64,000 nt of DNA from Opitutales bacterium (GTDB lineage Bacteria > Verrucomicrobiota > Verrucomicrobiia > Opitutales > Intestinicryptomonadaceae). The translations under genes and the position numbers were made by a program. This document shows positions 14,887-19,572 of the stretch, in pieces (the first letter of the stretch is position 1; each line of letters starts with the position of its first letter). The notes under the pieces were generated by a model that saw only the letters and a program-made list of their open reading frames with translations, ran no database searches and had not been told where the DNA came from. The DNA lies in assembly GCA_015061945.1 (NCBI GenBank), contig SUVP01000001.1, positions 434,001-498,000 of the forward strand, in the 5' to 3' direction.

Positions 14887-16455
14887 TTAGTCAACCTGAA
14901 TTTCTGCATAAACTATTTTTGCAGAAGTTCCTTTTATTTTAAAACTATTTACGCCTCGCTTTAGTACATTTGCCGAAAATTCAAAACGCAGAGCATACTC
15001 CGATTTTCCATATTGAAATGGCATAAACTCGGTACGGACTTTTTCATATTCGACATCATTGAGAGTCGCCGAGAATTTTGAATTTTCCATTCCTTTACCT
15101 TTTTCAAAACCGACAACCACAACTGCTTTCCCCTTTTGCGATGGCGTTGCAACTTTTATTTTTATTTCTGAATTTTTTTCAGCGTCTACATCAAGTGGAA
15201 GTTGCACTTCCATATTTTCAGTAATATCTTTGAAGTTTTCGAACAAGATATCGTTGTCCATATACGACACAGGATAGCGTCGGTGTTTCTTTATTATTTC
15301 AGATTTTTCGAGACCCTCTTTTGCCAGCTCAAACCAGACATGTCTTGTGTACATCATATTGTAAACGTACAAGCCGTCTGCTCCGTTAGATAGCGTGTTG
15401 TCTGCCCAAGCTCTGCAATATGGCATTTCCATTTTCACGCGTCGAGCTCGTGGAGAATCTTTCATTTTAAAACATGGGTACGGATTAAACCCATGATCAC
15501 ACGCACCCAATAATGCGACACGCGATTCTACTTTTTCACCCAATGCTTTTTTCCAAGAATCAAAATTGATATCGAAATAAGTTTGGTAAGATTGCGAAAT
15601 GATAATTGCATCAACAAGTCCCATTTTCGCCCAATCATCAACATTTATCCCTAATCCACGCGAAAGTTCAATCGTAAATGGGACGCGAACTGCGACACCG
15701 ATTTTTCGTCCACGTTTTTTTGAAAATTCGTCAGTTAATTTTCGAACCTCCGACATAAATTCAGTCAAGCAATGCGAAAGCTCTTTTTCTTTGCCTTCTG
15801 TCAAACAAAATGGAGCGCGAAGCCAATCAATACTGATACCGTCGCAATCCCAATTTTCGAGAAACTCGCGTACAAGAGCGAGCTTGTAGTCGCGAACTTG
15901 TTTATGCGAAAAATCAAAAGCGCCGTCTTTCCACGTTTTCAACGGATTCTTTTTTGTGCGTCGATACTCTGGATGGTCTCGCCAAAAATCGAGAATACGA
16001 GCTCTATCTTTGTATTCGTTTGCACGAGTGAGAAAGTGAGTATCATTTATACGCATTTCAATCCATGGAGACACTCCAATTTCTCGACATTTTTTTGTCC
16101 AAATTGCGTATGGGTCGAGCCCACGTTCATAAAGCAGGCGAGCACATTTTGTCCACTGGATTTCAGGAAAAATTTTATCATTTTTCAACTTATCCCAAAC
16201 GGCTTCACTCACCTTTGTGCGATAACTTGTACGCTGACCGTTCACGCCCATAAAAAAGTGCGAAACCTTGCCATAGCGAAGATTATCCACATAATCTTCA
16301 AGTGCCTTTTGCGTCATCAATTCTTCGGGATTAAATCTGAAATAAAATTCGTTATCTTCGGAAATAACAAGAGTTCCCTTTTTAAAAAAATGATTCTCGG
16401 CTGAATATGCCAGTCCCGATACAAGTACAAAAATACAAATAAAAAATAACCTCAT
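14887..16455 (-). CDS. Secreted GHL10/DUF187-like glycoside hydrolase
   Basis: Exported protein (522 aa) with a signal peptide ending near AYSA. The core resembles the family 10-like glycosyl hydrolases (GHL10): an early EMRIND strand, FDFSHKQVRDYKLALVREF, then CDGISIDWLR with a likely catalytic acid at the strand end. Residues about 400-522 look like a beta-sandwich appendage. Substrate unknown. It is divergent from the DUF3863-like lipoprotein gene with about 90 bases between the chosen starts. Confidence 0.72.
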   Translation of the reverse strand: MRLFFICIFVLVSGLAYSAENHFFKKGTLVISEDNEFYFRFNPEELMTQKALEDYVDNLRYGKVSHFFMGVNGQRTSYRTKVSEAVWDKLKNDKIFPEIQWTKCARLLYERGLDPYAIWTKKCREIGVSPWIEMRINDTHFLTRANEYKDRARILDFWRDHPEYRRTKKNPLKTWKDGAFDFSHKQVRDYKLALVREFLENWDCDGISIDWLRAPFCLTEGKEKELSHCLTEFMSEVRKLTDEFSKKRGRKIGVAVRVPFTIELSRGLGINVDDWAKMGLVDAIIISQSYQTYFDINFDSWKKALGEKVESRVALLGACDHGFNPYPCFKMKDSPRARRVKMEMPYCRAWADNTLSNGADGLYVYNMMYTRHVWFELAKEGLEKSEIIKKHRRYPVSYMDNDILFENFKDITENMEVQLPLDVDAEKNSEIKIKVATPSQKGKAVVVVGFEKGKGMENSKFSATLNDVEYEKVRTEFMPFQYGKSEYALRFEFSANVLKRGVNSFKIKGTSAKIVYAEIQVD

Positions 16456-16545
16456 AATTTAGTGTTATGTTTAAATTTTGTTCGAGTCAATCCTACATTA
16501 AAAAACTTGCAAAGATATATCAGAAAAAGTATTTGTCTATGTATT

Positions 16546-17898
16546 ATGACGAAAAAAATTCTATCTATATTTACATTGGGACTAATACTTTTTTCTTTTT
16601 GCAGTTGCAAGAAGGCTGAAAATAAACCTTTAGAAAATGGCAGATTTCTTTCTTTCTGCACAATTATAAGATACCATCAAATTGAAATTACGCGTGAAAA
16701 AAGTCTGGGTTGGTCTGAAGTTGAAATGCACAGCGTAGAGAAAGCAAAAATCTTTCGCGAAAAAATTTACAAAGCTTGCCCGACTGCAAAAATCACTTGG
16801 GCATTTAGCTGGCTCGCCCTCACAGATAAAACTGCACGATACTCCGATATCAGAAAGTATGTCGCCCAGTGCGTAAAAAAGTATGGCGATGAAATGACAT
16901 TTATCCCAGGAGCGTACTTCCCGAACGCATATAACTCGACAGAACAAGTCAACAAGGATATGCACGACGCACTTAAAATCATTGAAGAATGCGTTGGCGA
17001 TGGGTATCGCCCAAAGGCAATTATCGCAGGTTTCCTTTCGTCGAAAAATCAAAAATACTTGGCTGAAAAAGAAGGTATACACGTCTGCCAAGGGAACATC
17101 TTTAGTCAATATGCTATCGATAATCAAGACGGCGACGGCTCGCCATGCTACCCATACTATCCGTCAATTGAACACTTCTGCAAGCCAGCTCAAAACGATT
17201 CCGACTTTGTCGATTGCGTAAATCTCGACGGCTGGACTGTCGATTTCTTGGCTGGTCGTCGTGAAGGATTCGCTGAAGGATTCAACAGCAGAATGGGAGT
17301 CGGTCCGATTGAAACTGTCCACAAATTTATGCGTAAGGGCGACAAACAAGCTGGCATCAAAAAAGGTCTCGACCAAATGATGCACACAACCGCAACGCAC
17401 TTCGACACTGGCTTTAAGCTCAACGGCTTTGCATGGATTGTCAACTGTTGGGAACACGCACTTCCCCTCGAAGGGCTTGAAGAATGGATTAGTATGATTA
17501 TGAAACGCTGGCCCGATACAAAAATTATCACACACGGCGAGTTCGGGATGCTCTGGCGTGAACAATTTAAACACAATGATTTTGATTACAAATTTATTCA
17601 AACCGGATCGGGAATCGACGGCTCCGACGCCGACAAAGTTCTATACTGGTATATGAATAAGGACTTCCGTTTGGCAATCCTCAAACAAGCTGACGGAAAA
17701 GATGAAGGCAAAGTTATCGACTTTACTCGCTACGACAAGCCCGCACAAGAGCCAACCACAATGACTCGCAAATGGAGCTTATTAGGCGATATCAATCAAA
17801 AGCAAACACGCCCACAAGATAAACCTGTAAAGATTTCAGAATTACCGAGAGAGTCCCAAGAAATAATCAAAAAGCGTTATCCCGAATTGATAAAGTAA
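16546..17898 (+). CDS. DUF3863/DUF3864-like lipoprotein
   Basis: Probable lipoprotein, 450 aa after choosing the ATG at 16546; earlier frame positions would run into the divergent promoter region. The N-terminus MTKKILSIFTLGLILFSF precedes CSC, where a lipobox Cys is plausible. The body contains KITWAFSWLAL, DEMTFIPGAYFPNAYNS, HVCQGNIFSQYAIDNQDGDG and LDGWTVDFLAGRREGF, which I recognise from proteins labelled DUF3863/DUF3864 in gut Bacteroidota and relatives. A polysaccharide-deacetylase-like or TIM-barrel hydrolase role is plausible but not demonstrated. Confidence 0.6.
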   Translation: MTKKILSIFTLGLILFSFCSCKKAENKPLENGRFLSFCTIIRYHQIEITREKSLGWSEVEMHSVEKAKIFREKIYKACPTAKITWAFSWLALTDKTARYSDIRKYVAQCVKKYGDEMTFIPGAYFPNAYNSTEQVNKDMHDALKIIEECVGDGYRPKAIIAGFLSSKNQKYLAEKEGIHVCQGNIFSQYAIDNQDGDGSPCYPYYPSIEHFCKPAQNDSDFVDCVNLDGWTVDFLAGRREGFAEGFNSRMGVGPIETVHKFMRKGDKQAGIKKGLDQMMHTTATHFDTGFKLNGFAWIVNCWEHALPLEGLEEWISMIMKRWPDTKIITHGEFGMLWREQFKHNDFDYKFIQTGSGIDGSDADKVLYWYMNKDFRLAILKQADGKDEGKVIDFTRYDKPAQEPTTMTRKWSLLGDINQKQTRPQDKPVKISELPRESQEIIKKRYPELIK

Positions 17899-18130: not shown

Positions 18131-18377
18131 TTATTTTTTCTTGTCGCGAAATAACCTATAACATTTACTCCCGATTTCCTCTCGTTTTTTAACATCAAGG
18201 AAATCGGGAGAATTTATAAATGCCTCATTAAATGGGGTCGGCATACCCATATAATTTTCAAAACGTTCTGCATAAACTTTTGCAGATTCACGACCACATT
18301 TAAAATCAATCGCCCATACGAGAAGATATGCAAAAACAAGAAACCTCTCATACGACGAAATTTTCGCATCAAAATAA
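18131..18377 (-). pseudogene. Remnant of a small protein gene without a start codon
   Basis: A minus-strand frame of 81 codons runs from an in-frame TAA at 18378-18380 to a TAA at 18131-18133. It reads like real protein (for example SSYERFLVFAYLLVWAIDFK and YAERFENYMGMPTPFNEAF), yet has no usable start upstream. The first in-frame ATG is at about residue 40. An ATG at about 18367 is out of frame by one base, as expected after a single-base indel near 18355-18366. I do not recognise the family. A sequencing error is an alternative. Confidence 0.5.
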
Positions 18378-18476
18378 CATTATGTCAAAAATATTATTAC
18401 CGATAAAAATGTTATCAAAAAACTTGACAATAATTTAGAAGATAAGAAACTTGTTCCAGATAAATAAATAATTTCA

Positions 18477-18512
18477 ATGCAAAATTGGTGGCACAGTCGT
18501 ATGGTCGCATAG
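18477..18512 (+). CDS. trpL: Tryptophan leader peptide MQNWWHSRMVA
   Basis: An 11-codon ORF with tandem TGG Trp codons (18486-18491) and a TAG stop at 18510-18512, ending inside the first arm of the attenuator structure that precedes trpA. No clear Shine-Dalgarno precedes it, as for many genes in this window. TTGACA at 18424-18429 could be its promoter -35 box; no convincing -10 was found. The Trp pair, the stop placement and the following terminator together match known trp leader design. Confidence 0.75.
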   Translation: MQNWWHSRMVA

Positions 18513-18563
18513 AGTTTAAATTTTTAAACTTTTGGCGACCTTTTGTCTGGTCGCTTTTTTTTT
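18503..18563 (+). promoter_or_regulatory. Transcription attenuator before trpA
   Basis: Three segments can pair in two exclusive ways. Arm A GGTCGC (18503-18508) or arm D GGTCGC (18549-18554) can pair with arm C GCGACC (18535-18540). C:D is followed by nine T residues (18555-18563), an intrinsic terminator. A:C encloses a further hairpin GTTTAAA/TTTAAAC (18514-18529) and would block termination. A ribosome stalled at the Trp codons should leave most of A free; one at the leader stop should cover A and allow C:D. This is inferred from sequence. Confidence 0.78.
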
Positions 18564-18599: not shown

Positions 18600-19406
18600 A
18601 TGAAAATATCAGAAGTTTTTGAACAAGCTAAAAAAGAAAATCGTGCAGTGCTCACGATATTCATCACTTGCGGAGACCCTAATATAGATTTCTCCGAAAA
18701 ACTCGTTGAACAAATATGCAAGTCGGGGGCAGATATTGTTGAACTCGGCGTTCCATTCTCAGACCCTATGGCAGACGGACCCGTCGTACAAGCCGCATGC
18801 TTGCGTGCACTCGACGCAAAGACAACACTCCCGCAGATTATCGCAATGGCAAAACGCTTGCGTGAACGTGGAATAGACAAGCCGTTTGTCCTCTCGTCTT
18901 ACTTCAACCCAATTCTTAAATACGGAATCGAAAAGACTGTCGATGCTTGCGTTGACGCAAATATCGAAGCAATGATTGCTCTCGACCTCCCATACGAAGA
19001 ATCTGACGAAATTGCAAGTGTTGCAGAGCCTAAAGGCGTAAAGTTCATTCAATTTGTAGCTCCTGCAACACCACTCAATCGTGTCGAAAAAATCTCTCAA
19101 AAAGACGCTGGTTTCCTCTATTATGCGACTGTCGAAAAAATCGAAATGCAAGACGGCAAGCTCGATTCAAAAATCGCACAACGCCTCGCCGATGTTCGCA
19201 AAGCTTCAAAATTGCCAGTTGCATGCGGATACGAAATTACGACAGAAGAGTTGGCACACGCATCAGCCCTCGAAAGCGATTCTGTCGTAATTGCAAGCAA
19301 GGTTGTTGATATTGCATACGGAACGTTTGAAGAAAAAGGCGAAGTTCAAGCACTCGAAGCAGTCGACGTTTTCGTCAAGAAATTGGCGAACGCTATGAAA
19401 AGATAA
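18600..19406 (+). CDS. trpA: Tryptophan synthase alpha chain, divergent
   Basis: Alpha subunit that cleaves indole-3-glycerol phosphate. Glu48 and Asp59 in ELGVPFSDPMADGP match the catalytic pair. AAAGGA precedes the ATG. Length (268 aa) is normal. Oddities: the GVTG segment of the mobile loop is replaced (LYYATVEKIEMQDG), the phosphate-binding GFGI reads GYEI, and the later GS motif reads ASK. It may be a rapidly evolving but functional TrpA or have altered activity. It is not next to other trp genes, yet it has its own Trp-codon leader, which supports a real role in tryptophan synthesis. Confidence 0.88.
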   Translation: MKISEVFEQAKKENRAVLTIFITCGDPNIDFSEKLVEQICKSGADIVELGVPFSDPMADGPVVQAACLRALDAKTTLPQIIAMAKRLRERGIDKPFVLSSYFNPILKYGIEKTVDACVDANIEAMIALDLPYEESDEIASVAEPKGVKFIQFVAPATPLNRVEKISQKDAGFLYYATVEKIEMQDGKLDSKIAQRLADVRKASKLPVACGYEITTEELAHASALESDSVVIASKVVDIAYGTFEEKGEVQALEAVDVFVKKLANAMKR

Positions 19407-19444: not shown

Positions 19445-19470
19445 AAAATCCGCCTCGGCGGATTTTTTTT
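19445..19470 (+). terminator. Intrinsic terminator after trpA
   Basis: Stem AAAATCCGC pairs with GCGGATTTT around a CTCG loop, followed by a run of T. Confidence 0.85.
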
Positions 19471-19572
19471 GCATAAAATAATCGACAAGTTCTGTTGCGA
19501 TATAGCTTGAAATTTATGATAAATTTTTGCTAATCTAACCCCTTTATTTCACAAAACAAAAGTATCACTACC

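Follow-up and report, generated by a model that had tools for sequence, protein, structure and literature searches.

A putative ribosome-mediated tryptophan attenuator retained on the unlinked trpA and trpB genes of an Opitutales bacterium

The only trpA gene of an Opitutales bacterium is preceded by a short leader that very probably acts as a ribosome-mediated Trp attenuator, derived from a trpE operon and kept on tryptophan synthase genes that probably make tryptophan from indole. The parts of the element, their spacing, conservation and covariation, and the accompanying gene losses are sequence-based findings. The window, i.e., the whole stretch of DNA analysed, comprises 64,000 nucleotides. 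Its first-pass annotation had proposed that a stand-alone trpA is preceded by a Trp leader peptide and an attenuator, naming lack of conservation of the Trp codons or pairing arms in relatives as the evidence that would speak against it. This comparison was made with 15 leaders from 14 genomes of the family; the tandem Trp codons and arms A, C and D are conserved in 15 of 15, with covarying pairs, and the proposal stands.

The leader reading frame, MQNWWHSRMVA plus stop, occupies positions 18477–18512 of the forward strand (ATG CAA AAT TGG TGG CAC AGT CGT ATG GTC GCA TAG). The tandem codons TGG TGG (WW; codons 4–5, 18486–18491, forward strand, as are all further features unless stated) constitute the predicted sensing site and are invariant in every aligned leader. 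Behind them, an outer arm CAG (18494–18496) pairs with CTG at 18547–18549 in naked RNA; in genus g1, codon 6 varies at its first two positions but invariably ends in C. Arm A, GGTCGC (18503–18508), is the 5′ arm of the antiterminator inside the final leader codons. An AT-rich hairpin B (18511–18532; arms 18511–18519 and 18524–18532) separates it from arm C, GCGACC (18535–18540), which is common to antiterminator and terminator. The conserved terminator loop TTTTGTCT (18541–18548), partly paired in the antiterminator, leads to arm D, GGTCGC (18549–18554), and nine T residues (18555–18563), which complete an intrinsic terminator (18549–18563). The A:C antiterminator and the C:D terminator are mutually exclusive, and 36 nt lie between the end of the T tract and the trpA start.

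The predicted fold of this 87-nt RNA has an energy of −33.9 kcal/mol (z = −6.4 versus shuffles), and in the naked RNA the WW codons are a further partner of arm D. The first-pass annotation thus needs refinement in two respects. The leader does overlap arm A but does not end inside it, as A lies wholly within the last codons and the stop is one base beyond. Likewise, the switch between A:C and C:D plus nine T residues is present, but it is not restricted to three arms, since hairpin B and the WW:D and CAG:CTG pairings add to it. A scan for the whole arrangement (WW leader, A:C, C:D and T-run) finds this single site on both strands of the 64-kb window, and 60 dinucleotide shuffles of the window yield no such site. 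TTGACA at 18424–18429, a consensus match, probably serves as the −35 element of a promoter specific to the leader; in 14 of 15 leaders, TTGAC or TTGAT occurs 46–84 nt, mostly 46–53 nt, ahead of the start codon. No obvious Shine–Dalgarno sequence precedes the leader start.

The trpA gene itself (18600–19406) encodes an intact tryptophan synthase alpha chain (TIGR00262, 201.7 bits; PF00290 over cut-off) with the motifs VELGVPFSDP and MADGP, which carry the catalytic Glu and Asp. It is monocistronic and is followed by an intrinsic terminator identified by consensus scan (19445–19474). Its flanking genes are not shared with the relatives' loci examined. Further upstream, a protein of the DUF3863/DUF3864 families (Pfam) is encoded at 16462–17898, and a 522-aa reading frame without Pfam match lies at 14887–16455 on the opposite strand.

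The host genome (2.5 Mb, 97% complete) has a single trpA, the one in the window, and a single trpB on a different contig. Each sits within a long contig and is flanked by other genes, indicating that their separation is not due to a contig break. Before the lone trpB lies another leader, MKNWWHSIKVA, whose arms are the same. An RNA model built from 14 leaders accordingly matches two sites and no more on the forward strand of this genome, one before the only trpA and one before the only trpB. The two copies are 81% identical and each is nearer to a relative's leader than to the other, so that a recent duplication within the genome is unsupported. Genes for trpE, trpC and trpF were not found in the host genome, and the relatives in the same searches have them. 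Judged from gene content, the likely use of the lone trpA and trpB is tryptophan formation from indole.

The loss of trpC raises the possibility that the trpA copy is a decaying relic, irrelevant since TrpA has lost its substrate. Indeed, indole-glycerol-phosphate synthase was not found in the host genome, and the TrpA branch is long (0.93 versus 0.12 in the sister G017; support 91/86), as would be expected if the alpha reaction were less constrained and the supply of indole-glycerol phosphate had been lost. Fast evolution is seen here for TrpA and not for TrpB. A relic is nevertheless improbable: WW and all arms are intact, an A in arm C and a T in arm D render both helices fully Watson–Crick, and the trpA reading frame and active-site motifs are preserved. 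Moreover, the alpha subunit of tryptophan synthase can be kept as an activator of TrpB.

Conservation among relatives supports the attenuator reading. WW is found at codons 4–5 in 14 leaders and at codons 5–6 in one, the leaders span 10–13 codons, and start codon, WW and length are conserved throughout. Arm A begins 10–11 nt behind WW, and all six A:C and all six C:D pairs are kept, in 15 of 15. Under an assumed leading edge 15 nt beyond the P site's first base, a ribosome whose A site is on the second Trp codon would end at most one base short of arm A in every leader, and a ribosome at the stop codon would cover A and leave C free, again in 15 of 15. Arm A is read in frames that differ between species, giving GTC GCA TAG (-KVA*) or AGG TCG TGA (-RS*) around a constant GGTCG, which indicates that it is kept as RNA.

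Covariation points in the same direction for the antiterminator. In an alignment of 14 leaders, 95.8% of the cells in this fold are paired, and changes on both sides occur at seven pairs; hairpin B shows such changes at four of eight pairs. Slid registers score clearly lower, and none of 500 shuffles is as high on any measure, a result that counts as support and not as a p value, because the shuffles keep the relatedness of the leaders in place. For the C:D helix alone, covariation stays within the range of the shuffles; three of the sequences are out of register in this helix, and arms C and D show little variation.

Mean pairwise identity across 11 genomes is 92–100% for WW and arms A, C and D and 95% for the terminator loop, compared with 31% at fourfold sites of trpB and 36% in the 50 nt before the leader. 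The fourfold sites are near saturation, yet the loop is this similar between species. From these comparisons, selection appears to act on the leader as RNA. Conservation of the loop is explained in part by antiterminator pairing, where bases preceding A are partners of UU and the CAG behind WW is the partner of CUG; the UUGU part is not accounted for in this way.

An RNA, including a loop, conserved so far above neutral sites would also be expected of a switch that binds a ligand or a protein (a riboswitch, or a TRAP-like or tRNA-binding element) and in which translation of WW is of minor importance. This reading is very improbable: AA:UU and CAG:CUG pairing within the antiterminator explains part of the loop conservation, the start codon and WW are in frame in every leader, and the spacing matches the ribosome edge to the base. 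No Rfam family matches either; covariance models including Trp_leader gave no match in the window or at the loci of 13 relatives, and permissive thresholds returned chance matches only. Least credible of all, with almost no chance of being correct, is the view that hairpin and T tract merely terminate the upstream gene and that the WW frame arose by chance: intergenic terminators can serve an upstream gene, and a small reading frame ends near 18131, but TTGACA sits between this frame and the leader, shuffles give nothing comparable, and the recurrence of WW frame, arm A and spacing in 15 leaders with unrelated upstream sequence makes it untenable.

For the Trp attenuator, we infer stalling, switching of the RNA in vivo, termination and a role in indole use, in the following order of events. 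Transcription would start from the element's own promoter, and the first ribosome would begin to translate the 11-codon leader. When tryptophan is scarce, the ribosome would wait at codons 4–5 with its leading edge just short of arm A; A would stay free and pair with C once C is transcribed, the terminator would be blocked, and trpA would be made. When tryptophan is plentiful, the ribosome would reach the stop codon and mask A, leaving C to pair with D, and transcription would stop at the T tract. The ancestral place of the element would be the trpE operon of the family; in the host genome, trpE, trpC and trpF would have been lost and trpB and trpA unlinked. As trpA and trpB each retain one copy, both synthase subunits would answer to tryptophan.

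The predicted energies differ between leaders. When arm A is unoccupied, the energy difference between A:C and C:D is −2.3 kcal/mol in the trpA leader, −0.3 kcal/mol in the trpB leader and −1.6 kcal/mol in the leader of a relative, G007, in favour of A:C; in the 12 trpE leaders it is +0.1 to +7.7 kcal/mol, which leaves A:C level or disfavoured. In these 12 of 15 leaders, the terminator is predicted to be slightly more stable, so that A:C would have to form first during transcription. A:C is at least as stable as C:D in three of three salvage leaders versus none of 12 trpE leaders, a contrast that serves as a lead only, since it was seen post hoc and both salvage genomes may be AT-biased. In the naked full leader, the antiterminator is predicted to be favoured in 15 of 15. 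The model therefore predicts that a leader without translation allows readthrough, the reverse of E. coli, where an untranslated trp leader terminates. A reversed default state, in which the ribosome-free leader forms a long antiterminator, WW sequesters D and termination needs translation up to the stop codon, together with a retuning towards readthrough in indole-salvage genomes and separate copies that adjust the alpha and beta subunits, can be offered tentatively and is somewhat less probable than its opposite.

The gene behind the leader is trpA, trpB or trpE in every case. It is trpE in eleven further genomes of the genus and in one of another genus, which identifies the placement before trpA as a derived remnant. 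The earlier emphasis on trpA instead of trpE therefore holds for the locus in the window but not for the element as such, given the second copy before the lone trpB and the trpE copies of relatives. Across 373 genomes of the order, the RNA model has matches in 14, which all belong to this family, and only before trp genes, with one forward-strand match per genome apart from the two in the host. G008, which yielded few or no candidates in any search, was left out as evidence of absence. A degenerate DNA pattern attracts GC-rich chance matches; of the 80 loci inspected among the matches listed, those of two relatives, G010 and G014, were the only ones that the RNA model recognised, and this search sets no limit on the distribution. 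A simpler TGGTGG...T7 pattern was uninformative, with 21 matches in the host genome and 25 in the reversed control, i.e., no excess.

The element is retained on truncated operons in two genomes. In G007, the leader MQKWWHSLRS precedes trpBA, and trpE, trpC and trpF were not found. The TrpB tree groups G007 with G009 (97/95), which keeps trpE, so that G007 and the host genome appear to have lost the early genes separately; most other forks of the tree are weak. G007 also carries an incomplete second copy of a Na/Pi cotransporter gene, a fragment with an internal stop that adjoins the intact gene (G007:C5:65467-65667, within L318).

Other Trp leaders were observed in the phylum. Genus g2 of the same family (L153, L154) has a different WW leader of about 25 aa, MNTSVCASFSWWRLSCRKTDGIHAR, with its own terminator before trpB in a trpB-trpE operon; a hairpin lies directly behind WW, and the arm GGACGG recurs as the D arm of the terminator. 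In other families, a WW or WxW leader with a terminator is found in 12 of 92 trpE upstream regions versus one on the reverse strand (L297, L299, L300, L307-L313, L315). G486 (L311) carries two such leader-terminators one after the other, and a 12-nt arm in one of them is complementary to its terminator. None of the other-family leaders tested reached an Rfam gathering score.

The element documents cis attenuation of trp genes in Opitutales and hints that the phylum has a broader range of trp leaders that lack annotation. It also illustrates how a regulatory RNA may outlive the break-up of its operon and stay with the remaining genes after loss of the early pathway, apparently more than once. 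With the subunits of one enzyme complex under separate copies, the host genome constitutes a natural test of attenuator tuning. The searched full-text literature, outside of which most subscription papers fall, contained no description of trp operon attenuation in Verrucomicrobia. What would be new is the lineage, the presence of a separate copy on each synthase subunit gene and the predicted readthrough of the untranslated leader; the mechanism is ordinary for its known kind, and its placement on lone subunit genes, and perhaps its default state, is unusual.

Like E. coli trpL (Rfam Trp_leader), the element has a WW leader in which the position of the ribosome would select antiterminator or terminator. 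Unlike trpL, it matches no Rfam model, its naked leader is predicted to form the antiterminator, and a 1:2 protector hairpin upstream of the antiterminator is absent from both the MFE and the consensus folds. The three-arm layout, which the first-pass annotation set against a four-arm one, is present but already known from the trp attenuators of Actinobacteria (PMC1262725). In Corynebacterium and Streptomyces, a leader with two or three Trp codons and a poly-U tract is combined with a complementary triple, gGCC-rGCy-GGCC, common to antiterminator and terminator, and C. diphtheriae has separate attenuators before trpB1EDGC and trpB2A (PMC1262725). The Trp-codon leader, three complementary arms and more than one attenuated trp unit per genome are shared with these systems. 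The element differs from them in phylum and sequence, in WW at codons 4–5 of a 10–13 codon leader, in the AT-rich hairpin between A and C, and in that one copy governs trpA alone. A very short leader is also found in Sinorhizobium meliloti, where the 14-codon trpL before trpE(G) yields a terminated leader RNA, rnTrpL; action in trans has been reported for this RNA and for the peptide (PMC7298713). Indole-using trpRBA of Chlamydia trachomatis is under tryptophan-dependent control by TrpR and YtgR, and its putative, unvalidated trpL encodes 59 aa without consecutive Trp codons (PMC7755916). The Opitutales genes resemble this trpBA remnant in their probable use of indole, but differ from it in being preceded by a compact cis attenuator.
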